From positions 434,001 through 498,000 of the forward strand of contig OX637634.1 in assembly GCA_951802195.1 (NCBI GenBank): a stretch of DNA of 64,000 nt, written 5' to 3'. The notes below the pieces were generated by a model. The model was not told where the DNA came from, ran no database searches, and worked only from the letters and a program-made list of their open reading frames with translations. This document shows, one piece after another, positions 3,262-54,015 of the stretch (within the stretch, counting starts at the first letter, position 1; every line of letters begins with the position of its first letter). Source of the DNA: Tausonia pullulans (lineage: Eukaryota > Basidiomycota > Tremellomycetes > Cystofilobasidiales > Mrakiaceae). Made by a program: the position numbers and the translations under genes.

Positions 3262-3358
3262 AGCCCCACGGGGGGGTCGAACCCCCAACCTTCAGATCAC
3301 CGAAGTGAGTTGAGCACCTGCTAAGAGTCTGACGCTCTACCGATTGAGCTAGCAGGGC
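3262..3358 (-). tRNA. tRNA-Lys(CUU) with a 24-nt intron
   Basis: A full cloverleaf folds on the minus strand. The acceptor stem is GCCCTGC/GTGGGGC, the anticodon loop CTCTTAA carries anticodon CTT, and the T arm is GGGGG-TTCGACC-CCCCC. A 24-nt intron sits one base 3' of the anticodon, the canonical place. A TTTCTTTTT terminator follows the gene. Retroelements begin 79 bp upstream of its 5' end. Confidence 0.95.
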
Positions 3359-3437
3359 GACATAGTACACTGTACTCGGTTTGATAAGCCTTGCCCAAAG
3401 GTAAATTATGAGTACTACAGAAAAAAAGAGCATCACA

Positions 3438-3838
3438 CAACCACCATCCCGGTGGTTCGACCAACCCCCCCCTCTCACGGCGCCCATCACGCCGTCCGGC
3501 CAACCATCCCCAGTGGTTCGACCAACCCCCTTCCGGCCAACCACCATCCCGGTGGTTCGACCAACCCCCTTCCGGCCAACCACCATCCCGGTGGTTCGAC
3601 CAACCCCCCCCTCTCACGGCGCCCATCACGCCGTCCGGCCAACCATCCCCAGTGGTTCGACCAACCCCCTTCCGGCCAACCATCCCCAGTGGTTCGGCCA
3701 ACCCTCTTCCCACGGCGCCTCGCCCGACGTCCTCGCGCTCGGTCATGTCCGCTCTCCCTCTATCTAGCTACAACTCGCTATCTCTCATAGGGTTACCTCG
3801 TTCTCCACGTATAACTCATGACTTAAATACAAAAAAAA
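3438..3838 (+). mobile_element. SINE copy with six head units and LINE-like tail
   Basis: Non-coding element made of GC-rich head units of about 37 bp (ending CCTTCCGG) or about 62 bp (ending with CTCACGGCGCCC and a CCGTCCGG block), six here. Next come a unique body of about 55 bp and a 3' tail of about 75 bp ending ACTCATGACTTAAATAC plus poly(A). The tail is nearly that of the LINE at 28607-33155. Each unit contains a short hairpin (ACCACC...GGTGGT) and a GGTTCGACC core resembling a Pol III B box. Reading frames through the units are artefacts of the repeat. It lies 79 bp upstream of tRNA-Lys and points away from it. Confidence 0.85.
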
Positions 3839-4174
3839 CACAACCACCATCCCGGTGGTTCGACCAACCCCCCCCCCCCCTCTCACGGCGCCCATCACGC
3901 CGTCCGGCCAACCATCCCCGGTGGTTCGACCAACCCTCTTCCGGCCAACCACCATCCCGGTGGTTCGACCCCCCCTCTCACGGCGCCCATCACGCCGTCC
4001 GGCCAACCATCCCCAGTGGTTCGGCCAACCCTCTTCCCACGGCTCCTCGCCCGACGTTCTCGCGCTCGGTCATGTCCGCTCTCCCTCTATCTAGCTACAA
4101 CTCGCTATCTCTCATAGGGTTACCTCGTTCTCCACGTATAACTCATGACTTAAATACAAAAAAAAATAAAAAAA
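3839..4174 (+). mobile_element. Second SINE copy, four head units
   Basis: Same family, directly abutting the previous copy and in the same orientation. It has four head units with a 12-base C run in the first, the same body, the same tail and an interrupted poly(A). It lies one step farther from tRNA-Lys. It could be a separate insertion or a tandem duplication of the neighbour, because no clear target duplication separates them. Confidence 0.8.
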
Positions 4175-4176
4175 TT

Positions 4177-4436
4177 GGTGCCGCCATCGATCCTGGGTGA
4201 AAAGCAAGTCAGGGGAGGTAAAATATGGCTGGTCCATAGCCAATGCTTTGTGTAACTGGTCATCTTGATATCTTACCTTTTTGATGGGCCTATGTCCATA
4301 CCCATATGTTGCTTTCCTTCCACCTGTTCTTTATTTTTGCTCTCCCTCCATCTAGCTACGACTCACCATCTCTCATAAAGTTACCTCGTCCTCTAAGTAA
4401 CACTCAGGACTTGAATACAACAAACAAACAAAAAAC
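4177..4436 (+). mobile_element. Old 3' fragment of the LINE
   Basis: Starts in the last codons of LINE ORF2 (GATCCTGGGTGAAAAGCA), then follows the LINE 3' UTR with many differences and ends in a degenerate TTGAATACAA tail. It is clearly more diverged than the SINEs between it and tRNA-Lys, which makes it an older layer. Confidence 0.8.
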
Positions 4437-4499
4437 CATTGTAGGAGCATGCCTATTTCTTAAGTCTTTAATCAAACAGAGGAAATGGTACAGTGGGAC

Positions 4500-4745: not shown

Positions 4746-4875
4746 GTCGGCCGATGCTTCCACCGAATGATGGATGCGATCGATCGGATCTCGTTGTCCG
4801 TGACATTGACGAAGCCTTGAGCTTGTAATGTCGTCATCAGCTGAGCAAAGGATCACCTTTGCCTTTTTGTGTGTG

Positions 4876-4936: not shown

Positions 4937-4942
4937 AATAGG

Positions 4943-5172
4943 TTTTTTTTTTGTATTTAAGTCATGAGTTATACGTGGAGAACGAGGTAACCCTATGAGA
5001 GATAGCGAGTTGTAGCTAGATAGAGGGAGAGCGGACATGACCGAGCGCGAGAACGTCGGGCGAGGCGCCGTGGGAAGAGGGTTGGCCGAACCACTGGGGA
5101 TGGTTGGCCGGACGGCGTGATGGGCGCCGTGAGAGGGGGGGTTGGTCGAACCACCGGGATGGTGGTTGCCCA
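4943..5172 (-). mobile_element. SINE copy upstream of tRNA-Tyr, with 6-bp target duplication
   Basis: Two head units, body, tail and poly(A) (read as poly-T at 4943). It is flanked by a direct repeat AATAGG at 4937-4942 and 5173-5178, i.e. a 6-bp target-site duplication. Its 5' end is 69 bp upstream of the tRNA-Tyr 5' end and it points away from the tRNA. Confidence 0.85.
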
Positions 5173-5241
5173 AATAGGGGCTACCATGAAAGGTATTGAG
5201 TATATATTAATATTATAATCTGATGTTTATATCTGCTTTAT

Positions 5242-5326
5242 CACCGCTTAGCTCATCTGGTAGAGCGTGAGACTGTAATGATCCGGAGTCCTCTCAAGGT
5301 GTGCGGTTCGAGTCCGCAAGCGGTGA
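5242..5326 (+). tRNA. tRNA-Tyr(GUA) with a 12-nt intron
   Basis: Acceptor stem CACCGCT/AGCGGTG with the C1-G72 pair and A73 typical of eukaryotic tRNA-Tyr. Anticodon stem TGAGA/TCTCA, anticodon GTA, intron of 12 nt after position 37, T arm TGCGG-TTCGAGT-CCGCA. A TTTT terminator follows at about 5335. Confidence 0.95.
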
Positions 5327-11165: not shown

Positions 11166-12436
11166 ATGCACCACCACTGTCCCGCTCCCTTAGACCGCAT
11201 CCAATACGACCATGGACTCCAACTAACTACCATTCTCCAAACAGTCAATTTTACCACCGCCTCGATCTCGAGCCGTCCTGAGAGCGTGCAGGTGCGTCGG
11301 TTTGCGCTCTTCGACGGATCTCCCGCGCGGCAGCAAGCGGCCAGCCCTTTCTCCCGTGCGTCCTGACGCCAGAAACCATCTTCTCTCAGAATATTCCAGA
11401 CGATGAGGAGTTACGACGACTTCGAGCCGATGCCGAGGCAAGCGATCGCTCCCTCAAGTTCAACGACTACGTCAGTCACTCGCGCCACCCGTCCTAACAA
11501 GCGACTCCGAGACATGCGAATGAAGCGTAGCTGACGTATACTTCCACCTCACAGAGAAAGGGCTACCTCTACAGGAAACTGGGTCTCACCATCGGCCGAA
11601 CGGACCTCCAGCGTGCTCTCTCTCTCAGCTGGATGATGCGGAGCGAGCTGTCGAGAAGAGCGAGGCTGGGGAGAGGCTAGCCGAGGCTGATATTGGACGC
11701 ACGAGAGACCGTGAATACGACTGGTTATTAGTGTTGAGTGGAAGGATTTTTAATACGAGGTCCCTTTGACAGGCCCAACGGCGCTAGCAGAGGGCCTTGA
11801 GGAAAGGATGGCCGATCTTTGGGAAGCTCGAGCGCGCGGAACGTCTACGTATAACTCATGACTTAAATACAAAAAAAAAAAAAAAAAAAGTCGAGTGAGA
11901 TCCGGTTTGCCGAGAAGTCCGTCAACGCTGCCGTCCAACAGCTGAGAGACGAGGAATGTGTAAGTAGAGAAAGAGAGGGTTACCACTGTTCTGTTTCTGC
12001 GCCCTTCGTCATTCTTGTCGGACATGGATGTAAGTAGCAATCCGCGCTCTTCCGCCGATCCATCAGGCTTTTCCTCGGTCCGGGTGACCTCGAACGAAAG
12101 AAGGCTGCGCTGGAGAGGGCGGCAAGCATGACGAGAAGGGCAAGGCGGGAGGTCATCTCTGCTAGAAACGTGGTCAAGCGGATCCGCGAGCGTGAGTTGT
12201 GCCTGCACGTATGCGTGTTTGTTTTCGTCACTAATACATGCATGGGTTCGTTCCCCCCTGCAGTACAACGGGTCCTCAACGTCGACCTACAAGCCACAAG
12301 AGAAAAGCTGGAGGATGCCGAGGCGAGGCGAGCGTCGGCTTCCCAGGTCAATCGCCGAGGACAAGTGGAGTTTCATGATCTCGTGCTGACCGCTCAATCT
12401 TTGACAGACTCCTGTAACGTTCGATTGACTGTCTAG
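11166..12436 (+). pseudogene. Coiled-coil protein gene, disrupted
   Basis: Unrecognised. The first exons are in phase: ATG 11166 to about 11291, then NIPDDEELRRLRADAEAS..., then RKGYLYRKLGLTIGRTDLQ. After a CT-rich microsatellite (about 11617-11630) the coding signal continues only in another frame (LDDAERAVEKSEAGERLAEA). Further coiled-coil exons follow (LAEGLEERMADLWEARA, IRFAEKSVNAAVQQL, LERKKAALERAAS, VLNVDLQATREKLEDAEARR). A 44-bp retro-tail interrupts one exon and brings a stop. Removing the insert and one copy of its GTC target duplication gives an uninterrupted frame, so this was a gene before the insertion. Heptad-like, charged, probably a structural or kinetochore/cytoskeletal protein; function unknown. 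Confidence 0.45.
11846..11889 (+). mobile_element. 44-bp retro-tail insertion inside the coiled-coil gene
   Basis: Consists only of TACGTATAACTCATG then ACTTAAATAC and 19 A residues, the last bases of the LINE/SINE tail. It is bounded by GTC at 11843-11845 and 11890-11892. It is the one copy of the family in the window that is not upstream of a tRNA gene. Confidence 0.8.
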
Positions 12437-27808: not shown

Positions 27809-27880
27809 TTCCCCTGCCGGGAGTCGAACCCGGGCCTTGACGGTGAGAGCGTCATATCATAGCCGTTAGACAACAGAGGA
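27809..27880 (-). tRNA. tRNA-Glu(CUC)
   Basis: 72-nt cloverleaf: acceptor TCCTCTG/CAGGGGA with A73, anticodon stem TGACG/CGTCA, loop CTCTCAC (anticodon CTC), T arm CCGGG-TTCGACT-CCCGG. No intron. A TTTTT terminator follows on its strand. A retroelement array of more than 5 kb starts 82 bp upstream. Confidence 0.95.
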
Positions 27881-27962
27881 CTTCATAAGTTATATGTGTG
27901 TTAAAAATGATGAAAGTAGAAGAACCCTTGAATATTTGTCGCCCGAGTAAATACCTTACCTC

Positions 27963-28219
27963 CATCCCGGTGGTTCGACCAACCCCCCCCTCTCACGGCG
28001 CCCATCACGCCGTCCGGCCAACCATCCCCAGTGGTTCGACCAACCCCCTTCCGGCCAACCATCCCCAGTGGTTCGGCCAACCCTCTTCCCACGGCGCCTC
28101 GCCCGACGTCCTCGCGCTCGGTCATGTCCGCTCTCCCTCTATCTAGCTACAACTCGCTATCTCTCATAGGGTTACCTCGTTCTCCACGTATAACTCATGA
28201 CTTAAATACAAAAAAAAAA
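27963..28219 (+). mobile_element. SINE copy upstream of tRNA-Glu, inserted into a LINE tail
   Basis: Three head units (the first 5'-truncated), body, tail and poly(A). It is flanked by TACCTC at 27957-27962 and 28220-28225, a 6-bp target duplication. The flanking bases belong to the LINE 3' UTR (...CTTACCTCTTTAATGGGCC...), so this SINE landed inside an earlier LINE tail. It is 82 bp from the tRNA 5' end and points away. Confidence 0.85.
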
Positions 28220-28374
28220 TACCTCTTTAATGGGCCTATGCCCACACCCATATATTGCTTTCCTTCTACCTGGTCTTTACTTCTCGCTTTCCCTCTATAT
28301 AGCTACGAATCACCATCTCTCATAGGGTTACTTCGTCCTCTACGTATAACTCATGACTTAAATACAAAAAAAAA
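28220..28374 (+). mobile_element. LINE 3' tail fragment
   Basis: Matches the last ~150 bp of the LINE 3' UTR from TACCTCTTTAATGGGCC to poly(A). A few bases of the same fragment lie left of the SINE. Confidence 0.8.
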
Positions 28375-28606
28375 GTAGGTCGAACCACCATCCCCGGTGG
28401 TTCGACCAACCCCCCTCCCACGGCGCCCATCACGCCGTCCGGCCAACCATCCCCAGTGGTTCGGCCAACCCTCTTCCCACGGCGCCTCGCCCGACGTTCT
28501 CGCGCTCGGTCATGTCCGCTCTCCCTCTATCTAGCTACAACTCGCTATCTCTCATAGGGTTACCTCGTTCTCCACGTATAACTCATGACTTAAATACAAA
28601 AAAAAA
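28375..28606 (+). mobile_element. SINE copy with two head units
   Basis: Same family and orientation as its neighbours, between the LINE tail fragment and the large LINE. GTA at its 5' junction and GTAC after its poly(A) may be part of a short target duplication. Confidence 0.8.
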
Positions 28607-29238
28607 GTACAAGAGCTCGACCAGCCTCGTCATACTGCTATTACTGCCACTTATTTGAGCACGCTCGTGCCAAGTGTCCTACCGCTCCAGAGTGTGGCGG
28701 ATGCGGATCGCACGCTCACCCATCGGCCCGATGCCCAGGTCGTCCGAAGGCAAACCTTCCAGCGAGTGCGCGAGCACCAACCGAAGGACCCCCCCAACGG
28801 CCTGTCGAACCGGGACCAGACCTGGATGGATACCAGCTCGTACAAAGATCCAAAAGGAGGTCACTGAACAGACCGACTGGAGCCGCGACGGAGGTGACCA
28901 CACCTCCTGCCCACGCCGACTCCTCCCACTCCCACTCAGAGCAAGCACCGCGCAATGCGGGCTCGCAACCCGTTCTCACCCTGAGCGCCCTAGAGGATGA
29001 CAACGAGGGGGGTATGGCGAGGACAGAAGACGGGATGCAGGTCGAAGACGAGCATCCATCTTCCACTCCACCTCCCCTGTCACCATCGTCTCCCCCGCCC
29101 CCATCCCCATCCCCGCCATCTTCGCTCCTCCTGAACCCACCCTCTACTCCTTCTCTCATCCCCTCCACGCCGTCCTCCCAGGCATCCATCGCGCGCACCC
29201 TCGTGACCTTGGCTGAAGCCGAGGACATGGAAGAATAA
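28607..29238 (+). CDS. LINE ORF1 (nucleic-acid-binding protein), C-terminal part
   Basis: Open from the truncated left end to TAA at 29236-29238. Near its start lie zinc-knuckle-like cysteines (CYYCHLFEHARAKCP, then CGGCGSHAHPSARCP), as in gag-like ORF1 proteins of LINEs, which coat the element RNA. The rest is Pro/Ser-rich and disordered and ends EAEDMEE. No upstream start remains in this copy. Confidence 0.8.
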
Positions 29239-29240
29239 TG
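29236..29240 (+). promoter_or_regulatory. UAAUG stop-start overlap between ORF1 and ORF2
   Basis: The ORF1 stop TAA (29236-29238) shares its last A with the ORF2 start ATG (29238-29240). The same pentamer drives termination-reinitiation translation of ORF2 in the silkworm LINE SART1 (established). Use of that mechanism here is inference. Confidence 0.75.
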
Positions 29241-32200
29241 GTGTACAACGATGTACAGATCGTCGCGGCGAACATCCAGAGGGTGTTCACGCGAGATCGC
29301 GCCCGCAGTCTCCTCCTCTCCCTCTATTCACGATCCAAGGCAGACATATACCTTCTCTCAGAAGTGGCATGCACAACACCAGATCAGGTAGCGACCTGGA
29401 CAGCTGAGTGTGAAGATATGGGCTTCGGCTCGATCTTTACGGTTGACTGCCAGACGGCCATCCTCTGGCGGCATGCCTCTCGATTCCTCCCTCCTGATAC
29501 CCCTCCGACTAGGATCAGATCCATCTCCCGCTCCTCTCCCATCTTACGAACCAACCTGACGGATGCCGTGTTCGTCATTGCCGGCGAAGCCGTCAGGATG
29601 GCTGCAGTCTACGTCCCCTGCCGAGACAGCCAAACGAACGGCCGCTCGACAAAGGAGTTCCTCTCTACTCTATCTCGCAAGATACCTGCCCACTCTGACA
29701 TCCCTCTCCTCCTGGGCGGGGACTGGAACTGTGTGGAGGACAGCTACCTCGACGGGATGAGCCAATTTACCCAGAACGCGGGAAAGGAGGAAATGTGCCG
29801 GCTGGCCCGGGACTTTGCCCTCTCTGACCCATACCGATCCCTATACCCGCTCCAGCGCGAATACACTAACTATACTGGCATCACGCGAGCAGACCGCCGC
29901 ATTGATCGCTTCTATCTGTCCCCTCTGCTCGCTAGCCGAGCCGTACGACAGCGCTTCCTGCCACGACCGTCTGGCCATCTCTACTCTAGCCACAAGCCGA
30001 TCGAACTCAGCCTCACCTTCCCCGGTGCAATAGAGCACGGTCCCGGATCATACAAGATCGGTACACACCTTCTGAAGATTACCGGTCTTGTCGAATACTT
30101 CCTATTCCATATCCCCGAGTGGTACCACGATGCGCTTACAGAGACCAGGGACCCCTTCGGGGCCTGGGACGAGACCAAGCTTCAGATAGCGGATCACGCG
30201 TCAGACATCTCAAGACACCTCGCCCGAATGAGCAGAGTGTCAGGCGGGGATCCACACAGGTCGATCCTCCAAGGCCACGCTCTTCGAGCCCACCTCGAAC
30301 CAGCCAACACAAGCGAGTATGCCGTCAAGCAGCGACTCAAGATCGTCCGCCAGGCCGACACTATCGCAGCCCTGCGGCCACTCAACAACCCAGCGGCCGC
30401 AGCCATCGCAAACAACGAGAACATTCTAGCTACAGCACACGCCTTCTACACAACTCTCTATGAGACCAAGACGACGCCAGCCGCCGAGCACGCCAACGCC
30501 CTCCGATATGTCACCAAAACACTCGACGGCTCCCAAAGCCAGCCCCTCGAGTCTCCTTTCGAACTGGACGAGCTCAGACGGGCCACGTTCAGATCGAACC
30601 GTAACAAGACACCAGGAAGCGACGGGATCCCCGTCGAATTCTACCAGGCCACTTGGGCTGCCGTCGGCCCGATCCTCCTCAGCCTGCTGAACCTCGTCCC
30701 GGAGACAGGCCTCCGATCCGCCTCACAGCGCGAGGCCCATATCCATCTGATCTTCAAGAAGAAGGGAGATCGCGACCAGATTGCCAACTACCGTCCGATC
30801 TCGCTCATCAACGTTGACGCTCGCATCTTCTCCCTTGCCATCAACAGCCGCCTGCTCACCGTCGTCGACTCCCTCATCGACGGGGACCAGACAGGCTTCC
30901 TCCCTGGCCGCGACTCGGGTCGCAACATCTCCTCTCTCCAGCTCGCCATTGACGACGAAGACCTCTTGCCTGGCGTCCTCGCCCAGGTCGACTTCGAGAA
31001 GGCATACGACAGAGTGTCGCACGACTTTGTTGGCCGCTCCTGCCTCAGCCACATGGGGTTCGGTCCGCGCGCCGCCGCGTGGATCACCTCAACGATGACC
31101 TCTCAGACAGCTCGGCTCATGATCAACGGATGGATGGGTCAAGCCATCGACATCCGGTCTGGTGTCCGCCAGGGCGATCCCGCGGCACCGACGATCTTCG
31201 CCCTCCTCCTGGAGCCGCTGGCATGTATGCTCCGCCATCGCCTCCCACCGGCCAATCCACCCCCTCTACATGAGCGGAAGGTCCTCCTCTTTGCAGACGA
31301 TCTCAGTATCCGTTGTCGGACCTGGTCGGAGGTCGACGAGGCGACGGTCTGCCTCCGAGAGTACGAGAAAGCCGTAGCAAGCAAGCTGAACTACCAAAAA
31401 TCACTCCTTTATCCTCTAGGGTCATGCCGGACGGATGCACCTGCGTGGCACCACGAATGGCGCGTCCAAACGCTTTCATTCGACTTCCTCGGCGTCCCAT
31501 GTGGTCGCACGGTCAACGTGCCTGCTTGCTGGCGAGATGTCATCGGCAAACTGAAGGCTCGACTCGCGCGCATCCCGCTGCACGATCTCCCTCTCCTTGC
31601 GCGATGCAACGTCATCAACCAGTACATCTACTCGAAGATCATCTACCTGGACCGCTTCCTGCCGTGCCCAGACGATATCCTGGAAGACCTCGAGGCAACG
31701 GCCTACAAGTCCCTCTACCGATCGAAACACCACGACGTCAGCAGGGAGCGTCTGGAAACCCCTCGAGACCTCGGCGGCTTCGGCTTCACGCCACTCCGAT
31801 TCCGGCTCATCAAAGCGCGCGCCCAGTGGGCTGGCGATGTGCTCTTCAGACCGGAGCTTCCCGCATCGATCCGTATTCGCAAGCGGATCATCCATACCAT
31901 GAGCCTCGACCCAGGGGCCTATAGAATGCTGACTCGCACCATCTTCAGGGATGGAGAGTTCATCAGAGGACCTCGGCCCGCCAATTTCAGCTGGCTGGGC
32001 GTATTCCTTTCCCCAGTGGAAGGTCAATGGTTCTTCCCAGCCGTCTGGTGGAATGCCATCACAAAGCTCCAAGGAGCTCTCCCTGCACGATGGCAGGCTT
32101 ACCTCCGGGCATGGTTCGAAGAAATCAGCTTTGACACGAGCTACTGGAATCAAAACCGCTGGAGGAACACTGTCCACTGGATGTCTACGTTCGGTACAGA

Positions 32201-32918
32201 TAGCCAGTTGCGGATAGCTTTCCACCCTGGCCACACAAACCTGGGCCGGCTGAATGTTCCTCGTGAGCCCCACGGCGCACACAGTCGTACTCTAGCCAAC
32301 CGCGGCCTCATCATCCCAAAGGGCTGGCAAGACCACTTTCCGGCGCTTACCAAGATCGATTGGAAGCGTCAGTGGTGCTTGCTCAAGGCCGTGTCCCGAG
32401 CGTCGCCCGAAGACGTCGACTTGGCCCATCGCTTCTCGCTGTACAGTCTCCACCCAGGAAAGCATACTGCTGCGGCATTCCTCGCCGACGGAACCGCTAC
32501 GCCGCACAACAGGTCCAAGCGATGTGCGCTGTGCCTGACGGCCCCCGTTGAGTCCTTCTTCCACCTCTTCGACGAGCCGTGTCCCGTCGTGCGCGCTATC
32601 TGGTCTGCTGCTGCTGCTGCACGTGCCTCGCCTTCGATCCCCTCCCATCCTCCGTCCCTCCAGACGCTTGTCTGCCCGACACCGTCGCCGCCGAGGGCGG
32701 TCTTCCTCTTCCACTGCATCTTTGTTGCCCGGACATGGCGTTTTGTCCGGAGGCGGAGATACAGCAAGATCGCAGCCCTCGACCCTGTCACGGACGAGGA
32801 GATCCGCAAGATCGCGTCTATGATCCAGCAGAAACACTGGCAGTCGAGTACGAGGTGGATGGCTGGCAGGGACCAGATGGCTGGTTCTGCTGTCGGCGCC
32901 GACATCGATCCTGGGTGA
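29238..32918 (+). CDS. LINE ORF2: AP-type endonuclease and reverse transcriptase
   Basis: 1226 residues. Residues 1-260 form an apurinic endonuclease-like domain: VAANIQRVFTRDRARS, LLLGGDWNCVED near 160, RIDRFYLSP, and the SSHKPIEL histidine near 251. This domain nicks the target. The reverse transcriptase follows: PGSDGIPVEFY, IFKKKGDRDQIANYRPISL near 505, QVDFEKAYDRV near 584, SGVRQGDPAAP, and the catalytic LLFADDLS near 684. The last 450 residues lack a recognisable RNase H and carry a zf-RVT-like finger (CALCLTAPVESFFHLF...C). All catalytic motifs checked are present, so the protein may be active. It starts at the ATG overlapping the ORF1 stop and ends at the TGA at 32918. Confidence 0.93.
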   Translation: MVYNDVQIVAANIQRVFTRDRARSLLLSLYSRSKADIYLLSEVACTTPDQVATWTAECEDMGFGSIFTVDCQTAILWRHASRFLPPDTPPTRIRSISRSSPILRTNLTDAVFVIAGEAVRMAAVYVPCRDSQTNGRSTKEFLSTLSRKIPAHSDIPLLLGGDWNCVEDSYLDGMSQFTQNAGKEEMCRLARDFALSDPYRSLYPLQREYTNYTGITRADRRIDRFYLSPLLASRAVRQRFLPRPSGHLYSSHKPIELSLTFPGAIEHGPGSYKIGTHLLKITGLVEYFLFHIPEWYHDALTETRDPFGAWDETKLQIADHASDISRHLARMSRVSGGDPHRSILQGHALRAHLEPANTSEYAVKQRLKIVRQADTIAALRPLNNPAAAAIANNENILATAHAFYTTLYETKTTPAAEHANALRYVTKTLDGSQSQPLESPFELDELRRATFRSNRNKTPGSDGIPVEFYQATWAAVGPILLSLLNLVPETGLRSASQREAHIHLIFKKKGDRDQIANYRPISLINVDARIFSLAINSRLLTVVDSLIDGDQTGFLPGRDSGRNISSLQLAIDDEDLLPGVLAQVDFEKAYDRVSHDFVGRSCLSHMGFGPRAAAWITSTMTSQTARLMINGWMGQAIDIRSGVRQGDPAAPTIFALLLEPLACMLRHRLPPANPPPLHERKVLLFADDLSIRCRTWSEVDEATVCLREYEKAVASKLNYQKSLLYPLGSCRTDAPAWHHEWRVQTLSFDFLGVPCGRTVNVPACWRDVIGKLKARLARIPLHDLPLLARCNVINQYIYSKIIYLDRFLPCPDDILEDLEATAYKSLYRSKHHDVSRERLETPRDLGGFGFTPLRFRLIKARAQWAGDVLFRPELPASIRIRKRIIHTMSLDPGAYRMLTRTIFRDGEFIRGPRPANFSWLGVFLSPVEGQWFFPAVWWNAITKLQGALPARWQAYLRAWFEEISFDTSYWNQNRWRNTVHWMSTFGTDSQLRIAFHPGHTNLGRLNVPREPHGAHSRTLANRGLIIPKGWQDHFPALTKIDWKRQWCLLKAVSRASPEDVDLAHRFSLYSLHPGKHTAAAFLADGTATPHNRSKRCALCLTAPVESFFHLFDEPCPVVRAIWSAAAAARASPSIPSHPPSLQTLVCPTPSPPRAVFLFHCIFVARTWRFVRRRRYSKIAALDPVTDEEIRKIASMIQQKHWQSSTRWMAGRDQMAGSAVGADIDPG

Positions 32919-33155
32919 AAAGCAGGTTAGGGGTGGGGAAGTATGGTTAGACCATAGACCATATCCACCGCTCGACATAGCTGGTCATTTTGATATCTTA
33001 CCATTTCTAATAGGCATATGTCCATACCCATCTTTTGCTTTCCTTCCACCCCTACTTTCATTTTCGCTCTCTCTCTATCTAGCTACGAATCACCATCTCT
33101 CATAGGGTTACCTCGTTCTCTACGTATAACTCATGACTTAAATACAAAAAAAAAA

Positions 33156-33365
33156 TCGCTCTCCCTCTACCTTACCCAGCTACGTCTCAATATCTCTCAT
33201 AGGGTTATCTCGTTCTCTACGTATAACTCATGACTTAAATAAATAAAAAAGTATGGTTAGACTACTAAATACAAAAAAAAAAAAACACCCACATCACTCG
33301 CTATCTCTCATATGGTTACCTCGTCCTCTACATATAACTGACGACCTTTAATAGAAAAAGAAAAC
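33156..33365 (+). mobile_element. Three stacked, progressively diverged LINE/SINE tails
   Basis: Successive truncated tails at about 33156-33249, 33250-33285 (internally shortened) and 33290-33360, each ending in an A-rich run. They lie beyond the LINE as seen from tRNA-Glu and are more diverged the farther out they lie. Confidence 0.7.
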
Positions 33366-33384
33366 ACCCGAACACGAGGTGGTA

Positions 33385-33735: not shown

Positions 33736-33773
33736 ATGGACGCTTCCCTATTGCTCTTTATTTTAATGTGGGT

Positions 33774-33983
33774 TTGTTTTATTTTCAAAGTCATGAGTTA
33801 CACGTAGAGGGCGATATACCGCTACGAGTGATAGCGAGTCGTAACTAGATAGAGGGAGAGCGAAAAGAGAGAAGAGATAGAAAGAATGCAAAAGATGGGT
33901 ATGGACATAAACCCATTTAAAAAGGTAGAATGTCATGGTAAACAGCGTTGATTGGAGATGACAGATGTAGGAGGTAAAAGATC
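33774..33983 (-). mobile_element. Diverged LINE tail upstream of tRNA-Trp
   Basis: In minus sense it follows the older LINE 3' UTR type also seen at 51380-51560 (CCTACATCTGTCATC, then the AATGGGTTTATGTCCATACC region) and ends in a degenerate tail at 33774. It begins 89 bp upstream of the tRNA-Trp and points away. Confidence 0.75.
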
Positions 33984-34072: not shown

Positions 34073-34146
34073 GATCCTTTAGCTCAGTTGGTTAGAGCAC
34101 CAGATTCCAAATCTGGGGGTCAACGGTTCAAATCCGTTAAGGGTCT
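34073..34146 (+). tRNA. tRNA-Trp(CCA), copy 1
   Basis: 74-nt cloverleaf without intron: acceptor GATCCTT/AAGGGTC, anticodon stem CCAGA/TCTGG, loop TTCCAAA (anticodon CCA), T arm AACGG-TTCAAAT-CCGTT. TTTT terminator follows. All four copies in the window are identical over these 74 nt. The discriminator base is T, which is unusual. Confidence 0.95.
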
Positions 34147-34701: not shown

Positions 34702-34775
34702 AGACCCTTAACGGATTTGAACCGTTGACCCCCAGATTTGGAATCTGGTGCTCTAACCAACTGAGCTAAAGGATC
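34702..34775 (-). tRNA. tRNA-Trp(CCA), copy 2
   Basis: Identical to copy 1, in inverse orientation, with a CTTTTT terminator. It shares about 60-90 bp of upstream flank with copies 1 and 3 but not the downstream flank. Confidence 0.95.
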
Positions 34776-34873: not shown

Positions 34874-35293
34874 TCAACCACCATCCCCGGTGGTTCGACC
34901 AACCCCCTTCCGGCCAACCACCATCCCGGTGGTTCGACCAACCCCCCCCCCCCCCCTCTCACGGCGCCCATCACGCCGTCCGGCCAACCATCCCCGGTGG
35001 TTCGACCAACCCCCTTCCGGCCAACCACCATCCCCAGTGGTTCGACCAACCCCCTTCCGGCCAACCACCATCCCCAGTGGTTCGACCAACCCCCCCCCCC
35101 CCCTCTCACGGCGCCCATCACGCCGTCCGGCCAACCATCCCCAGTGGTTCGGCCAACCCTCTTCCCACGGCGCCTCGCCCGACGTTCTCGCGCTCGGTCA
35201 TGTCCGCTCTCCCTCTATCTAGCTACAACTCGCTATCTCTCATAGGGTTACCTCGTTCTCCACGTATAACTCATGACTTAAATACAAAAAAAA
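34874..35293 (+). mobile_element. SINE copy upstream of tRNA-Trp copy 2, with 6-bp target duplication
   Basis: Six head units, two of them with runs of about 14 C, then body, tail and poly(A). Flanked by TCTGTG at 34868-34873 and 35294-35299. The 5' end is 98 bp upstream of the tRNA and the element points away. Confidence 0.88.
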
Positions 35294-35349
35294 TCTGTGA
35301 CTTAACTCCCAACTCCCTTTCTTTACAAAAATAATAATAAGATTAAAAT

Positions 35350-43442: not shown

Positions 43443-43446
43443 ATCA

Positions 43447-45404: not shown

Positions 45405-48400
45405 ATGACCCCCTTCGCAATCCGGAAGCGGCTCCTCCGACTCATCTCGGCCGTCGCCTCAGGTCATCCCATCGAGATCATTCTCCTCACTTTCGTCGTC
45501 GTTACCCTCACCTACTTCCAGCTTCTTCACACGATCAAGCACTCGGACTTGTGAGTGGCCTCCCTTTCCTCCCACTCTGCGCGAGGTCGAGAGAGCGAGC
45601 GGCATCGGCGGTTATCGACCTGTCGGCTGTCGGCCCACTTTTGGGCGGAGAGCTCGGGCCTTTGCTTGCTGATTGTCGCTCTTTCTATGTACATCGACTG
45701 ACTCGTCCCTGCTCGGCTCATTCCCCCTCCTTGACCCTCCACTTGCATCTGTGCTCACCGATCTAACTCGATCTGACACTCTCGCTCGCCATCGTTCGCC
45801 CAACCCTCGACGCGCGTTCCTCACCCGGCGCGCTCCAACCATGATCTCCGCCTTCGTGTTGTACTCCCACTAGCTTCTCCGAGTCTGCCATCTCCTCGTC
45901 CTGGGCTGCCCCGCGTAGCATCGTCGTTGCCCACGGTCCCGCCGTCTCGTCCTCGTCGCCCTCGGGCTGGTCGCCTCTTCCCCTGGACGACTGGCGCTCG
46001 ATTCGTGAGGGTGGCAGCTTCCTCTCTCCGGCCGCTTCCTCGGACCCTGCCCCGGCTCGTGTCGTCTTCGTCAAACAGCTCGTAATTAGCCTCGATCCGA
46101 TCGACGTCGTCGAACGCTCGAACCTCTTTGCCGGACAGGACTTCAACGCCGCCGCCACCAGCTCGCTCGTCGACGACGAAGACGATGAGCCCTCGGTTCG
46201 CTCGGCTTCGGCTTCCCCCTCCACCCGCTCGAGGCCCTCGCTTGCCGCTGGCGCTGCCTCCAATGCCGCGAGGGTTGCCCGTGCTGGCAGCGATGACATC
46301 GGCTTACTCGACGAGCAGGTTCAGGGCGCGCTCGCCCGATTCGAGGACTACGTTCTCACTGCCGCATCCGTCCCCTACCGCGCTCCCGCCAATCTCAGCT
46401 CGCTCCCCCTACTCGCCAAGGCCGTCAGGCAGGCATCGGCGCTCCGGAATCAGCACCAGCGCGTCCGTGAGGGACACCCGCTCACGTTCGCTTCGGATCT
46501 TTGCTACGTCCCCACCGCCGCCAACGAGGCCAACGAGTCAGCGTGCTTTCACCTCACGACGCTCACCCAGCGAACCCTAATTCTCACGCTCGCCTTCTCT
46601 GGCCGCCCGGAAACGCTCCCGGCCTCGTCAGCACTTCTCCCCGCCACCGCTGGATCGCTTCCCCCGGCCTCCTTCGCCCGAGACTTTGCTGCCCGGCTCG
46701 CCCAGCTCCCAACTTTTTCCGTTGACGGCCTAACCGTTTCGTCGCGCTCAATCGACAGTGAAGCCGACGCTACCCCCTCGGCTGCGTGGGGTGCCAACTC
46801 GATTGTCGGTGGCCGTCGGATCGGTGAGATGCGCTCAGCGCGCTGGGTCGCATATGCCTTTGTTGCGCTCGTCATGAGGTTTTGGGGTCTCGCCCGCCAG
46901 GCCGACTCGGCGGACGTCTTTGTCGTCCTCGCCGGGTACCTTATCATGCACCTCACCTTCGCCCGGCTCTTCCTCAGCATGCGTCGCATGGGCTCCAATT
47001 TCTGGCTCCCCGGAACGGTCCTCCTCTCGTCGTGCTTCGCCTTCCTCGTCGCCCTGCTCGCCGCGTCCGTCCTCGGCATCCAGGTCGACCCGGTCTGCCT
47101 CTCTGAGGCGCTCCCTTTCCTTGTTATCACGGTTGGCTTCGACAAGCCCTTCGCCCTGGCTCGCGCCGTCTTTACCTCGCCTGAGATCGCCCCGGTTCTT
47201 CTCCGCCGCCGGCCCTTCATCGCTCCGGGAGATGACGAGGACGAGCCCGCCCGCCCTGCTAGGAAGGACAAGGTCGAGTGGGCCCCGCCCGTCCCGGCTC
47301 GCGATATCGCCGTCAATGCCGTCTCGCGCGTCGGCCCGTCTATCGTCCACGACTACGCCCTCGAAGTCGCTGTCCTCACCGTCGGAGCCGCCTCGGGCGT
47401 TGGAGGCCTCAAGGAGTTCTGCAAGCTCGCTGCGCTCATACTCGTCGCCGACTGCTGCTTCCTCTTCTCCTTTTACGTCGCCATCCTCACGATCATGGTC
47501 GAGGTGAGCTGAGGCGTTCTCTTCCTCTGCGCTGCCTTTTCCTGCATCTGTTCTGCTGACTGAGTCGTATTTCTTTCCTCAAGGTCCACCGCATCAAGCT
47601 CATCCGTGGCCTCCGCCCTATCATCGGCCATCGCCCAACGCCCGTGACCTCGTCCCCGTCCACCCCGACATCCTCCTCGGCCAGCTCAAGTCACATTGCC
47701 AATGGCAACGCTTCCCCTGTCGCTGCCGAGCCCCCTGTATCGTTCCTCCGTCGCGTTTCGCGCATGCTTTTTGGCTCCTCTGAGGTCGACACTGTGCCTG
47801 GAGGCAAGACTAACCCCGTCGCTCGGCTCAAGCTTCTCCTCATTGGCGCCTTCCTTGTCCTCCACATCCTTAATCTCTGCACGACCCTTACTGAGACGAC
47901 TGCCATCCGTCGGCATACTACCCACCAGTCGACTGCGCTCGCCCAGCAGCAGCAGACCTTCCTCTCTCGGCGTGTCGACCCGGCGTCGCCCTCGGTCGCC
48001 GCCGTCCTTGGAGAGCTCGCTGCGCTCCACGCTGGCGAGAAAGTCAACCTCATCGCCCACGTCGCCCCGCCTGTCCACTTTGGCGTTTCAGTGCCTTCGA
48101 TGTCGATTTCGGCCTCAAAGCGCGCTGCCGCTACCGCCGCTCGCGGAGTCGGCCGTCAGACCCACCACGGCCTCGTCCTCCTCGACAACTTTATGACGGC
48201 CTGGACTGCGCTCGTCGGCGATCCCGTTCTTTCCAAGTGGATTATTGTCACCATGGCGGTCAGCATCATTCTCAACGGTTACCTCCTCAAGGGTATCGCC
48301 TCGGCATCCGCCTCGGGCTCTGGAACTCGTGGAGCTGGAGGAGCCGCTGCTGCTGCCGCTGCTGTTCTCCTAGGCGCCTGGGAGACTGACGGGCCTGAGA

Positions 48401-50429
48401 GAGAGCTCTTCATTAAGGCTGAGTCTGCTTCCGACACCACTCCTGCCGCTGCCGTCCCCGTTGCTGCTGCCCCCGTCGTCGCTCCCGCCCCCTCGGTCCC
48501 CGAGCCGCCCAAGTACGAGAAGCCCATGCCGGCCTTCATCGTCTCACCTGCCACGTCCAAGACCATCCGCGCTGCTCCCGCCTCTGCTCCTGTCGTCGCC
48601 GCTACCTCGCCCTCCATCGCTGTCGCTCGCCCAGACGTCGCTTCGGACCGCCCCGCTCTCGATGGTCTCGTCAACGGCAACGGCCCTGTCGCGCTCCCAA
48701 CCGATGTTGTCGCTCGTCTGCGTCCTCTTGAGGAGTGCGCCGAGATTCTCAAGGGCGGTCTCGGCCCCTGGGAGCTCGAGGACGAGGAGGTTGTGCTCAT
48801 GGTCCAGAAGGGCAAGATTGCTCCATATGCCCTCGAAAAGGTCCTCCAGGACTGCGAGCGGGCCGTCAAGATCCGTCGTGCCGTCGTCTCCCGCGCATCG
48901 GTCACCAAGTCGCTCGAGGCCTCAGATCTCCCTTATATCGGCTACGATTACGCTAAGGTCCTGGGTGCTTGCTGCGAGAACGTCGTCGGTTACATGCCTC
49001 TCCCCGTTGGAATCGCTGGTCCTCTCACCGTCGACGGCGAGTCGCTCCCGCTTCCGATGGCCACCACAGAGGGTACGCTTGTCGCTTCGACCTCGCGCGG
49101 TTGCAAGGCCCTCAACGCCGGAGGAGGTGTCACCACCGTCATCACTCAGGATGCTATGACTCGTGGACCAGCCGTCGAGTTCCCGAGCGTCACCATGGCT
49201 GCTCAGGCTAAGCGCTGGCTCGACTCGGAGGAAGGACTCACAGTGCGATTTTTTCTCTTCCTGTTGCTGCTTCTCTACTGTTCCGATCACTGATAACGTC
49301 TCTTCTTCTCATAACAGATCATCAAGGAAGCTTTCGACTCAACCTCCCGCTTCGCTCGTCTCCAGAGCATTAAGTGCGGCATGGCCGGTCGGACGCTCTA
49401 CATTCGTCTCGCGACGAGCACTGGTGACGCGATGGGCATGAACATGGCTGGTGGGTCCAGTCTCTCCTTGCTTCGTCTTTCCCCTAGTCACTGACAATTG
49501 TTCCCCACCTCCAATAGGCAAGGCGACGGAGAAGTGCCTCGAAGCGATGAACGAACATTTCCCGCACATGCAGATTCTTGCTCTTTCTGGCAACTATTGC
49601 ACCGACAAGAAGCCGGCCGCGATCAACTGGGTCGAGGGCCGCGGCAAGTCCGTTGTCGCCGAGGCCGTCATCTCGGGTGCGATCGTCAAGTCTGTTCTCA
49701 AGACGACCGTCGGAGACCTCGTCAACCTCAACCAGAAGAAGAACCTCATTGGCTCCGCCATGGCTGGATCGATTGGTGGTTTCAACGCGCACGCGTCTAA
49801 CATTCTCACCTCGATCTTCCTCGCCACTGGTCAGGATCCGGCCCAGAACGTCGAGTCATCGATGTGCATGACTCTCATGGAGTCGTGAGTCGCTCTCTTA
49901 TTCTTCTTGCTTCCTTCCCTCCGTCGGTGACGCCCCTCCTCCCCCCTCTCTCTGCAGCGTCAACGATGGCCAAGACCTCCTTATCACCGTCTCGATGCCT
50001 TGCATTGAGGTTGGTACCGTCGGCGGCGGAACATTCCTCCCTCCCCAGAACGCTTGTCTCCAGATGCTTGGTGTCGCTGGTGCTCACCCGGACTCCCCGG
50101 GCCACAACGCCCGGCGACTCGCGCGCGTCATTGCCGCATCCGTCATGGCCGGTGAACTCTCGCTTATGTCTGCTCTCGCCGCGGGCCACCTCATCAAGGC
50201 CCACATGACGCATAATCGATCGACACCCAACACGCCCTTGCTCGCTTCCCCGTTGGCGTCGAGGCCGACGACGCCAAGCCCTCACCCGAGGACGTTGGGC
50301 CTTCTGACACCCATGGCGAGCACGAGCTCCGTCGCGAGTATTTTCTCCAAGGGTGGGCTCACCCATAGCTCGAGCACGACAGAGGTTTCGTCAGCTACCG
50401 CTGAGGGAACGACCACCGTCGACCGATAG
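45405..50429 (+). CDS. HMG1: 3-hydroxy-3-methylglutaryl-CoA reductase
   Basis: Rate-limiting enzyme of sterol and isoprenoid synthesis in the ER membrane: HMG-CoA plus 2 NADPH to mevalonate. Six exons (45405-45550, 45874-47503, 47584-49242, 49318-49450, 49518-49884, 49958-50429) give 1468 residues. An N-terminal membrane helix ([15 protein letters not shown]) is followed by a lumenal part. A sterol-sensing domain lies near residues 365-590 ([32 protein letters not shown]), then an Ala/Pro-rich linker. The catalytic domain starts near 970: [34 protein letters not shown] with the catalytic Glu, [51 protein letters not shown] and [14 protein letters not shown] with the catalytic His. A Ser/Pro-rich tail follows. 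Confidence 0.97.
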
Positions 50430-50991: not shown

Positions 50992-51065
50992 AGACCCTTA
51001 ACGGATTTGAACCGTTGACCCCCAGATTTGGAATCTGGTGCTCTAACCAACTGAGCTAAAGGATC
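50992..51065 (-). tRNA. tRNA-Trp(CCA), copy 3
   Basis: Identical to the other three copies. TTTT terminator on its strand. Upstream flank (GCCGGATCTTGACTC, then GACGACTGCGGTACC) is shared with copies 1 and 2. Confidence 0.95.
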
Positions 51066-51163
51066 TGAACGCCGGATCTTGACTCGGAAGAGAAGCGGAT
51101 CGACGACTGCGGTACCTCTTCCCCGGACCAGACCGCGAAAGGAGAAAGATGGGCAGCTTCTCA

Positions 51164-51560
51164 CACTGGCAGTCGAGCACGAGGTGGATGGATGTCGGGC
51201 AGTGGCCAGATGGCTGATACTGCTGCCGGCGCCGCCATCGATCCTGGGTGACAAGCAGGTCAGGGGTGGGGAAGTATCGTAGACCATACATAGACCACAG
51301 CCACCGCTCGACGTAGCTGATCATCTTGATGTGTACTTTTAGGTCTCCCTTACCCCACCCCCCCCCCCCTCGTACTTCCTACATCTGACATCTTCAATCA
51401 ACGCTCTTTAACATGGACATTTTGCCTTTTCTAATGGACCTGTGTCTTTACCCATATCTTCGTTAATTTTCGCTCTCCCTCTATCTAGCTGCGACTCGCT
51501 ATCTCTCATGGGGTTACCTCGTCCTCTACGTATGACTCATGATTTAGATACAAAACACAA
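51164..51560 (+). mobile_element. LINE 3' fragments upstream of tRNA-Trp copy 3
   Basis: Begins in the last ~30 codons of ORF2 (CACTGGCAGTCGAGCACGAG) and runs into the 3' UTR. At about 51340, after a C-rich run, an older-type LINE tail (CCTACATCTGACATC onward) continues to TTTAGATACAAAACA. The first piece is 98 bp upstream of the tRNA; both point away. Confidence 0.8.
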
Positions 51561-51599
51561 AGTTCTCTATGGGGCGGAATATGTCAATAGTGTCGACCT

Positions 51600-52985
51600 G
51601 TCGGGAGATGTCCGAGGCCCACTGAGTAATGTGGAGCTTGGTCTTGACCCAGGCCTGGAAGGGGCCGTCGATATCTCTGAGCGCACTATGCTACCAGCTG
51701 AGAGTGTGACGGAGGAAGAATGAATGAAACCCCTGAGCTTGAATGTGGACGGATGCCGACCTTGTGTGAGCCAGCCCCTTGTTCGGTTGCGCCTAGGATG
51801 GTGAGGCAGAGCTCGACGGGGTTGTGGCTGGAGTAAAGGGAGCCACACGAGTGCGGCAAAATATTCTGGTGAACGGCTCGACTAGCTAGCAGGAGGAGTC
51901 ATGGAAGCGAACAAGGTGGCGGTTGGCTCTTCTGGTGCCAGTGTGGTTGGTGTACGCACGACGGAGTGCGTAGCGGCTACGGACAGAACGGGTGTGAGAG
52001 TAAAGGCGCGGGCGATCGGTCTCATCTGATCCCCTCTGGAGTTGTTGGTATTGAGGCTTATCCCGTCGAGTTCTTCGTTCTACGCAGTTCCAGTCACCGC
52101 TCAGCGAGAAGGAATGTCTAAGCGAGTAAGGAGTGGGTGGGAAAGAGCAGAGAGGAATGTCTTGTCGACGAGCCACTTCAGCAGGGGATGTAGACGGCAA
52201 AGGCTTTAGCGGTCTCACCGTCGATAGCGAGAAGGGCATTCCTGAGGTTGGAACGGAGATTGGGTGAGGAGGTGAAGATGGCAGGCAGTCTGGCAGTTGA
52301 CGGTGAAGATCGAGCCTGGGCCAAGCTCTTCACAATCAGCTGTCCAAGCCTCCACCTGTTCGGGGGTTTTGCGTGCAATGTCAGAGAGGATCAAGAAATT
52401 AGTACTGGAGCGAGAGTGGGAAGAGGGAAGAAGGCTGCGAACATGATCTCGCATGAATACCCGTTGAATGTTAGCCGCGACGATATAAAGTTCGTTGAAC
52501 ACCGTTATTATCTATGTCCCCGGCTAAGGCCGTAGTCAGGAGGGAGGGTATCAATATGAGGCATGATGGAACCGCTTGAGACCTGCTGGTTTGAGTTCGA
52601 GTCAACGAGCTGGGAGCCCTTGGCGTCCACCATTACGGGCGCGTTTCCGGTCGCAACTTTCGCTCTGACTGGGATGTTGGCCTTGAGACGGCCCGAGCAG
52701 CAAGCAGAGCGATGGAATCGCAGGCTACATCTTCCGCACGTCGGGGCGACGGGGCACTCGGCGCGCTCGTGCTTCATCGAGTGGCAATAGTGTAATGCGT
52801 CGACGATGGACGAGAGGAGAAGAAGACCATCTCCTACGACTCGGACTACGTATAGGTCGCGCCTCCTACGCTTTCCTTGACCGAGGTGTCGTAGAGGTAC
52901 TAGGCTCTTTCGGATTATGCTAGAGGGAGCTGGACAGACTTGACGCTGACCTCGCGATTCGTTCAAGCTGTGAGCGTCTGGAAAA
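51600..52985 (-). mobile_element. Old, related LINE: ORF1 end plus ORF2 endonuclease part
   Basis: Minus strand. The ORF1 zinc knuckles (CHSMKHERAECPVAPTC, CGRCSLRFHRSACC) lie near 52700-52800. The ORF2 start region (ELYIVAANIQRVFMRDHVRS) is near 52490, followed by remnants of GDWNCVE, YSSHNPVELCL and the following helix down to 51600. Clearly the same family but diverged, with frame breaks. At the ORF1/ORF2 junction it reads TAATAACGG instead of TAATGG, so the stop-start pentamer is gone. Confidence 0.8.
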
Positions 52986-53135
52986 AGCGTCAGCCTTGGG
53001 CATCTTCTTGAACCCAGAGAGATCAAGCTTGACCCGGGCTCGGCCTGTGGGAGCGCCGGGTGCTCAGAGGTAATACTGGCGCGAAAGGAGGCGGGTTCGC
53101 CGAAGTTGCGGATGACTAGGCGCCGAAAACGAGTA

Positions 53136-53834
53136 TTTTTTTTTGGTATTTAAGTCATGAGTTATACGTAGAGAACGAGGTAACCCTATGAGAGATATCG
53201 AGTAGTATCCAGATAGAGGGAGAGCGAAAGTAAAGAACAGGTAGAAGGAAAGCAATATATGGGTGTGGACATAGGCCCATTAAAGAGGTAAGATATTAAG
53301 ATGACCAGCTACATCAAGCAGTGGCTATGGACCAGCCATACTTCCCCACCCCAGACCTGCTTGTCACCCAGGATCGATGTCGGCGCCGACCGCAGTTCCA
53401 TCCATCTGGTCCCTGCCAGCCATCCACCTCGTGCTCGACTGCCAGTGTGTCAGCCGGATCATAGACGCGATCTTGCGGATCTCCTCGTCCGTGACAGGGT
53501 CGAGGGCTGCGATCTTGCTGTACCTCCGCCTCCGGACGAATCGCCATGTCCGGGCTACAAAGATACAGTGGAAGAGGAAGGCCGCCCTCGGCGGCGACGG
53601 TGTCGGGCAGACAAGCGTCTGGAGGGACGGAGGATGGGAGGGGATCGAAGGCGAGGCACTTGCAGCAGCAGCAGCAGACCAGATAGCGCGCACGACGGGA
53701 CACGGCTCGTCGAAGAGGTGGAAGAAGGACTCAACGGGGGCCGTCAGGCACAGCGCACATCGCTTGGACCTGTTGTGCGGCGTAGCGGTTCCGTCGGCGA
53801 GGAATGGCGCAGCGGTATGCTTTCCTGGGTGGAG
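53136..53834 (-). mobile_element. 5'-truncated LINE copy upstream of tRNA-Trp copy 4
   Basis: The last ~150 codons of ORF2, including the zf-RVT finger (CALCLTAPVESFFHLF), open to the stop, plus the full 3' UTR and poly(A) (poly-T at 53136). Nearly identical to 32450-33155, hence recent. It begins 107 bp upstream of the tRNA and points away. A GT-rich change in the 3' UTR distinguishes it from the large LINE. Confidence 0.88.
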
Positions 53835-53941
53835 GCCGAAAACGAGGCGGGCAGGATTGTATTCTGTAGACCTGATCGAACAAAGGCGTCCGCAGTCGTC
53901 AGCAGTCGTGAGATCAATCATTACTTGAGATCCGACTTCTA

Positions 53942-54015
53942 GATCCTTTAGCTCAGTTGGTTAGAGCACCAGATTCCAAATCTGGGGGTCAACGGTTCAA
54001 ATCCGTTAAGGGTCT
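53942..54015 (+). tRNA. tRNA-Trp(CCA), copy 4
   Basis: Identical to the other three copies. TTTTT terminator follows. Its upstream flank is only weakly similar to that of copies 1-3. Confidence 0.95.

Follow-up and report, generated by a model that had tools for sequence, protein, structure and literature searches.

What places a retroelement at nearly the same distance upstream of transfer RNA (tRNA) genes in a stretch of fungal DNA? The stretch is a window of 64,000 nucleotides (nt) from the basidiomycete Tausonia pullulans (contig OX637634.1), which corresponds to C15:434001-498000 in the contig designations used here and belongs to a genome of 23,855,473 bp in 21 contigs. A preliminary description of this DNA had noted that seven intact tRNA genes each have, 69-107 bp upstream, a copy of one family of retrotransposons without long terminal repeats (non-LTR), the family consisting of a long and a short interspersed element (LINE and SINE) with a common tail. 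The answer reached here is that an L1-like LINE and the SINE that shares its tail very probably use target-primed reverse transcription to enter a site whose position the tRNA gene sets, where they would be held by the RNA polymerase III (Pol III) initiation complex.

Within the window, all seven tRNA genes score above the Rfam cut-off, and the ARAGORN calls are concordant (Table 1). The offsets given in the preliminary description hold to about 5 bp once two BLAST edges are corrected. BLAST places the edge of the nearest copy 80, 73, 77, 136, 140, 96 and 106 bp from the seven genes in order, and the values of 136 (Trp 34073) and 140 (Trp 34702) are under-extended matches: the true 5' end is intact at 100 bp from Trp 34702, and diverged element sequence runs, as judged by eye, to about 90 bp from Trp 34073. 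At 7/7 genes the nearest copy is divergent, with its 5' end toward the tRNA and its poly(A) end away, and a single family copy, a tail of 44 bp, lies elsewhere in the window, both as first described.

To view the family beyond the window, 338,912 bp were read in 61 segments (window included), drawn from eight 3-kb loci, twenty 10-kb stretches of C1 and C2 picked from exact tails, and 40 short stretches around tRNAs scored by covariance; the four tRNAs of C21, which was taken as mitochondrial from its size of 18.8 kb, were dropped. A family edge is present within 200 bp upstream of 60 of the 106 nuclear tRNAs having at least 200 bp of upstream sequence, and all 60 edges are divergent, so that the orientation noted in the window is not random outside it either. 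On the downstream side no family edge is found within 200 bp of any of the 116 nuclear tRNAs having 200 bp of downstream sequence. The targeted genes represent 14 tRNA isotypes.

The same association is seen when the tails are taken as the starting point. A 26-nt tail pattern (up to 3 mismatches) has 420 matches genome-wide, and the reversed pattern has 0. For 56 of the 68 tails read, the 5' side leads, across no more than 260 non-element bases, to a tRNA in the proper orientation (one permuted tRNA-Gln gene, described below, was scored as a tRNA in this test). The comparison with random positions that had been proposed at the outset bears the association out: an oriented tRNA is met from 394 (2.5%) of 15,573 points placed at random in the non-element sequence of these stretches, although this yardstick is rough, its rule (a tRNA 40-200 bp away) being a somewhat different one. 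Among the 12 remaining tails, 5 lie within 755 bp of the end of a stretch on the expected tRNA side, and 5 belong to a LINE array on C2, from which a tRNA-Ile lies 30-37 kb further on at C2:401189, with the sequence between not read; the last two are taken up below.

Internal Pol III promoter elements give a view that does not depend on tRNA calls. Of the 420 tails and the 730 B-box sites, 100 each had positions available; the members of the C2 array (14 tails, 25 B-box sites), the B-box at C2:1456306, one tail beyond the last B-box position and 42 tails on C3-C5 were set aside. For 14 of the 43 exact C1-C2 tails, a B-box on the opposite strand is found on the 5' side within 400 bp; the other three arrangements occur 0, 1 and 0 times. 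Within 1000 bp the counts are 22 versus 1, 7 and 0, the 7 being on the 3' side and opposite strand, the place expected for further members of a tRNA cluster. A pattern consisting of a SINE head, a gap of 67-97 bp and an A-box gives 13 matches, with 0 for the reversed A-box and 0 for the built-in controls; a tail facing an A-box at 55-85 bp gives 0 matches.

The offset was defined from exact 5' ends, since BLAST gives too large a distance when copies are diverged (values of 119-178 bp). The 24 that were found lie 65-152 bp from the tRNA with a median of 80, and 21 of them lie at 65-100 bp. The outlying ends are at 116, 150 and 152 bp, and a tail-only insertion intervenes at 116 and 152. (The smallest BLAST edge is 62 bp from its tRNA.)

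The junctions themselves carry traces of integration. Target-site duplications (TSDs) were sought with the match anchored at the 5' junction, because a search of the whole upstream region was swamped in the control by the element's own repeats. A flank match of at least 4 nt starting no more than 6 nt from the 5' junction is present in 11/16 intact copies, with shared lengths of 4-14 nt, compared with 11% of 240 mismatched pairs; for matches of at least 5 nt the figures are 8/16 and 3.3%. At C6:964491 a 430-bp SINE with the TSD GGTAGAC interrupts a sequence that is uninterrupted at four paralogous tRNA-Ala genes, and thus an empty site is available for comparison. The tRNA-Glu paralogues of C6 share a tail-only insertion of about 17-20 nt with the TSD CTTCCCG, and at C6:826810 one of them has taken a second, longer insertion no more than 1 bp away, the two offsets being 83 and 82 bp. 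The sequences on the nick side look dissimilar by eye (AATAGG/GGC, CACAGA/ACT, GGTAGAC/GGG and GTCCGG/GCT). Taken together, the TSDs, the occupied and empty paralogues and the dissimilar nicks indicate that integration is placed by the tRNA gene. Tail insertions of 17-20 nt or less were seen upstream of C6 tRNA-Glu genes at L053, L054, L055, L061 and L062, and also at C6 tRNA-Lys; their length suggests that reverse transcription can abort very early.

Where several copies lie head-to-tail at one tRNA, the proximal copy is the less diverged in 26/31 informative adjacent pairs (BLAST; sign test p=0.0002). One pair counted against this trend involves the stray window tail at 11848, which was misassigned to the Lys stack, and without it the count is 26/30. 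This order fits repeated insertion at a fixed distance.

Two longer arrays differ in how they may have formed. At C2:364000-400600, six LINE ORF2 copies with equal scores lie head-to-tail at a spacing of 6,096 or 6,286 bp, an array that has probably grown by unequal exchange or later tandem amplification. At C11:446973-468229, four head-to-tail LINE copies are spaced 5,830-5,876 bp apart; one is 100% and three are 96% identical to the query, and this mixture argues that the array is not a simple amplification. The tRNA genes can be arrayed as well: C6:684000-1020600 holds several copies, some inverted, of a Leu-Lys-Asn-Glu-Ala tRNA cluster whose Asn and Ala genes have few family insertions nearby, and the cluster could possibly be a refuge or a recent amplification.

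The anatomy of the LINE was established on the copy at L013. Its first open reading frame (ORF1) encodes 625 amino acids with CCHC knuckles recognized by eye, and ORF2 encodes 1224; the end of ORF1 and the start of ORF2 coincide at 5555, a one-base overlap. ORF2 carries an APE-type endonuclease, a reverse transcriptase (RT) and a zinc-knuckle-like C-terminus, and a C-terminal motif of the latter kind is also recognized by eye in the ORF2 of the window copy. Pfam scores RVT_1 at 88 bits and Exo_endo_phos at 22.6 bits (E 1e-4), slightly below the cut-off of 24.5, and finds no further domain at E<=0.001, RNase H included. Residues N12, E42, D162, N164, D223 and H252 and the ADD of the RT, which we take to be catalytic, are invariant between this ORF2 and two relatives of 37-38% identity. 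Among solved structures the human L1 ORF2p is closest at 156 bits, and R2-type entries reach at most 59 bits. By its domains and scores, together with its poly(A) end, 5' truncation and short, variable TSDs, the element qualifies as an L1-type non-LTR retrotransposon with APE and RT. The two closest proteins come from metagenome-type sources (36-37% identity over 95-97%), the next ones show 22-28% over 20-70% of the query, and no dictyostelid is named among 17 protein matches (7,999 candidates scored); a search of viral contigs found no ORF2 relatives. None of the 38 ORF2 copies that were scored contains a stop, and 8, counting the query's own copy, are at 100% (rounded), from which present-day activity of the LINE may be inferred.

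The SINE, the putative non-autonomous partner of the LINE, is about 220 bp or more in length and has tandem head monomers. Some 95 nt at the 3' end are common to it and the LINE, and it uses the same tRNA-upstream sites; one SINE tail folds better than its shuffled versions (z -3.3) and can form a hairpin. The head monomers (for example at 3503-3608 of the window and at C2:364286-395146) contain a B-box-like GGTTCGACC(A/C) on the sense strand of the element, and the C2 array holds 25 of the 100 B-box matches for which positions were available. These sequences are possibly a promoter.

How might such a pattern arise? In the mechanism proposed here, the pre-integration complex would be held by the Pol III initiation complex, whether through TFIIIB, TFIIIC or the adjoining nucleosome edge, and the LINE endonuclease would make a nick about 60-100 bp ahead of the mature tRNA, in the tRNA-sense strand. 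That the first nick falls on this strand is what the polarity of the copies would mean under target-primed reverse transcription. Synthesis would begin at the poly(A) end and the 5' end of the element would be finished toward the tRNA; any new copy would come to lie on the tRNA side of the older ones, or else within the initial bases of the latest one. Since the site is measured from the tRNA, stacks would have their youngest copy nearest the gene. Distance, polarity, stacking, target duplications and the empty site are the parts of this scheme for which the sequence itself speaks. The contact with TFIIIB or another Pol III factor is modelled on TRE5-A, a LINE of Dictyostelium discoideum (PMC5911963, PMC5391098). 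The preliminary description had proposed that the ORF2 machinery is recruited by, or cuts at, the TFIIIB-proximal region; the interactions with subunits of TFIIIB known for TRE5-A were detected with ORF1 (PMC5911963), and therefore the tether here need not be ORF2. An offset of 65-100 bp is further out than that of TRE5, so the site may correspond not to TFIIIB itself but to the periphery of the Pol III initiation complex or to an adjacent nucleosome.

The rival that retains most weight, though we consider it unlikely, is guidance by the state of chromatin or DNA: heavily transcribed tRNA genes would attract the element through their open DNA, R-loops, stalled forks or the edge of a nucleosome, with no contact to a Pol III factor. 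In its favour, the 65-100 bp site is beyond the DNA that yeast TFIIIB occupies, which on the 5S gene runs from about -40 to +5 (PMC5391098), and the nick sequences look dissimilar. However, the uniform polarity (60/60) and the absence of downstream copies (0/116) would be hard to obtain from open chromatin alone. This explanation overlaps at the nucleosome edge with integration held by the Pol III complex, and the probabilities assigned to the readings hence sum to more than one.

The other explanations fare worse. Site-specific APE-type LINEs are known, and the endonuclease could read a motif upstream of tRNA genes; but the nick-side sequences differ among loci by eye, and we regard this as very improbable. 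Less credible still is random insertion followed by selection, in which only harmless copies upstream of tRNAs survive. The genome is compact (24 Mb), and one tail-only copy does lie elsewhere (window 11848); however, selection leaves unexplained the 65-100 bp window of 21/24 ends, the fixed polarity and the 0/116 downstream, and the stray tail looks young (a run of 19 A), yet is one of only two unexplained among 68. Co-duplication, with tRNA and element multiplied jointly in one segment or the element including the tRNA, has segmental repeats to point to (the C6 tRNA clusters, inverted pairs on C2 and the LINE array at C2:364-400 kb), but the 14 isotypes with different spacers and different copies, the TSDs and the occupied and empty paralogues make it the least probable of all.

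Several observations weigh against integration at a tRNA-fixed site held by the Pol III complex, or limit how far it can be specified. Because the 106 tRNAs considered above include tail-anchored loci, occupancy was drawn from a score-selected set alone, the 62 top-scoring nuclear genes (63 were scored of 897 candidates). Of these, 58 were read for family edges and four on C9 were judged by pattern (one) or short stretches (three), with two occupied, one of them at 103 bp in a short stretch, and two without a match. Overall 36/62 are occupied, so that the claim that every tRNA gene is targeted stands for the window (7/7) and fails genome-wide. The deficit is concentrated on C6, where occupancy is 1/20 in the score-selected set (35/42 off C6) and 9/49 for all C6 tRNAs read, mostly at tRNA-Glu. 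Two of the 68 tails, at window 11848 and C1:1969400, have no tRNA despite sufficient room, and two possible tail remnants of less than 20 nt may end closer than 62 bp, at about 56-61 bp (C1:508561 and C2:1222691). Five of the 16 intact copies have a flank match of less than 4 nt, three of them none. Within stacks, the proximal A run is the longer in 22/32 pairs (p=0.05) with a weak rank correlation (rho -0.08), and rank against divergence over all 76 tails is also weak (rho 0.19, p=0.10). As for which part of the Pol III machinery is involved, the offset is unrelated to intron length (rho -0.06, n=21) and varies less when measured to the tRNA 5' end than to the B-box (standard deviations of 11.9 and 16.6), but the intron-length set is small and omits the three 5' ends beyond 112 bp, and the contrast in spread is descriptive only. 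An offset tighter to the tRNA 5' end and independent of the intron points, with these small numbers, to the initiation complex more than to TFIIIC at the B-box.

Comparison with known systems begins with TRE5-A, the parallel drawn in the preliminary description. The likeness is extensive: TRE5-A is also L1-type, with an ORF1 and an ORF2 of APE, RT and zinc finger, its insertions fall within a short interval upstream of tRNA genes and have the 5' end toward the tRNA, and it forms TRE-TRE tandems at one tRNA (PMC5391098, PMC5911963). Targeted upstream integration with fixed polarity is strongly supported as a shared trait; the distance is not shared, since the insertion window of TRE5-A is 40-54 bp upstream of the tRNA (PMC5911963) and that found here is 65-100 bp (21/24). 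Further differences are the basidiomycete host and the presence of a SINE that has the tail of the LINE and is found at the sites used by it; moreover, TRE5-A is said to need a -1 frameshift, whereas the ORFs of the L013 copy overlap by one base. The element is accordingly described as TRE5-like in the way it works, without being assigned to the TREs.

Other elements resemble this family in part. NLTR-A of D. purpureum and NLTR-B of P. pallidum are non-LTR elements upstream of tRNA genes; NLTR-B lies at 39-64 bp, but NLTR-A lies 2-6 bp from the tRNA, and both carry RNase H, in contrast to the Pfam result here. Dada DNA transposons and Utopia LINEs likewise use multicopy genes for small RNAs as targets, Dada being a DNA transposon and Utopia targeting U2 snRNA genes. 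LINE/SINE pairs with a common 3' tail form a known class, which the shared ~95 nt with its possible hairpin recalls, but here both partners target tRNA-upstream sites. Among fungal elements, Ty1, Ty3, Tyl6, Tca8 and other LTR elements show a tRNA-upstream bias (PMC5911963, PMC7175516); they carry an integrase and use a different integration chemistry. Cnl1 of Cryptococcus and Zorro of Candida are fungal non-LTR elements with location biases, but Cnl1 is CRE-type and telomeric, Zorro1/2 are subtelomeric and Zorro3 lies at poly(A) sites, and tRNA targeting is not described for them in the accessible text (PMC7175516). A 2016 paper considered tRNA targeting by TRE LINEs unique to dictyostelids (PMC5006619). 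The accessible portions of PMC7175516, PMC5911963 and PMC5006619 name no tRNA-upstream LINE in a basidiomycete, nor do the titles and opening lines of abstracts among the open-access matches listed, and within the literature searched, tRNA targeting in this class of element could otherwise be traced only to social amoebae.

Some loci outside the main pattern deserve description. One SINE lies beside a circularly permuted tRNA-Gln(CTG), at L014:1144-1227 (C1:751730-751813), in which the 3' half precedes the 5' half. Further permuted copies are at C11:102239, C11:104189, C11:112225, C12:826889, C12:903616, C12:966178 and C14:35507; with up to 3 mismatches allowed, the tRNA-Gln 3' half is present at 21 places, at least 8 of which are followed by the 5' half, the other 13 being not resolved. 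Three types of acceptor stem pair across the permutation by eye, T-runs follow the 5' half in the 4 permuted copies seen that far, and the rotated sequence is called tRNA-Gln(ctg) by ARAGORN; unrotated, the copies are missed by ARAGORN in 3/3 and by Rfam in 1/1 scanned. One pattern search for a tRNA-Gln in normal order gave a single match, which was a permuted copy matching by chance, and no separate gene. The permuted copies are treated here as putative genes. A pattern search gave no sign of an association of SINE heads with them (5 matches versus 15 in the control). Permuted tRNA genes are known from a red alga, prasinophytes and Auxenochlorella (PMC12636532), and no fungal case appears in the titles of papers on both terms among the matches listed.

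The SINE at L019:801-1030 (C1:1969400) is one that lacks a nearby tRNA; it is followed by a TATA-like ACATATATGG and later by T-runs. An Rfam scan of the adjacent L019:900-2200 finds no known RNA, and the neighbouring sequence may hold a Pol III gene of a kind not yet known. The only U6 gene seen (L019:6344) has as its nearest family copy a SINE whose 5' end is about 5.3 kb upstream, and one 5S rRNA gene was found. Elsewhere in the window, a Copia-type gag/pol fragment (37282-39030) is flanked by inverted arms of 233 nt (36547-36779 and 39053-39285), and two host genes encode HMG-CoA reductase (45845-49290; best matches, of about 48% over 70% of the query, in genera that we take to belong to Tremellomycetes) and a Tc5/CENP-B-type helix-turn-helix protein (59256-61868).

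Table 1. tRNA genes of the window and the family copies associated with them (coordinates are window positions)
Feature	Position	Strand	Basis or remark
tRNA-Lys(CTT), 24-nt intron; targeted gene	3262..3358	-	Rfam; ARAGORN with introns allowed
At least 3 stacked family copies upstream of tRNA-Lys	3439..4428	+	nearest 5' end 80 bp off; tails at 3808, 4135 and ~4396
SINE, intact 5' end, 73 bp from tRNA-Tyr	4943..5167	-	likely TSD AATAGG, starting 6 nt from junction
tRNA-Tyr(GTA), 12-nt intron; targeted gene	5242..5326	+	Rfam; ARAGORN with introns allowed
Solitary tail fragment, 19-A run, no tRNA near (exception)	11844..11887	+	sole window tail untied to a tRNA
tRNA-Glu(CTC); targeted gene	27809..27880	-	Rfam; ARAGORN agrees
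Three short stacked copies between tRNA-Glu and LINE	27958..28608	+	tails at 28187, 28343 and 28575
5'-truncated LINE copy with shared tail at tRNA-Glu	28609..33156	+	older tail fragments beyond, to ~33364
LINE ORF1, 3' part, CCHC-type knuckles	28609..29235	+	comparison with intact ORF1 of L013 copy
LINE ORF2, open: APE-type endonuclease and reverse transcriptase	29238..32915	+	domains tested on L013 copy
Old diverged 3' part of element upstream of tRNA-Trp 34073	33773..33935	-	diverged sequence onward to ~33983 (by eye)
tRNA-Trp(CCA)	34073..34146	+	Rfam; ARAGORN agrees
tRNA-Trp(CCA)	34702..34775	-	Rfam; ARAGORN agrees
SINE upstream of tRNA-Trp 34702, 5' end at 100 bp	34876..35301	+	likely TSD CACAGA
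tRNA-Trp(CCA)	50992..51065	-	Rfam; ARAGORN agrees
LINE 3' fragment with tail, tRNA-Trp 50992	51162..51561	+	edge 96 bp upstream
LINE 3' part with tail, tRNA-Trp 53942	53136..53834	-	edge 106 bp upstream
tRNA-Trp(CCA)	53942..54015	+	Rfam; ARAGORN agrees

We lean toward the view that the family represents an independent fungal invention of Pol III-directed LINE integration, in which a LINE and a SINE take part, the nick is measured from a transcription complex and not from sequence, and the copies form time-ordered stacks. If this is true, each tRNA stack preserves, next to a landmark that does not change, a history of transposition that can be read. With a second case from a distant kingdom, in a compact genome and with a SINE partner and stop-free ORF2 copies, it could be asked if one and the same Pol III surface was found twice and why the offset differs, and whether a protein contact can aim a LINE at safe sites.

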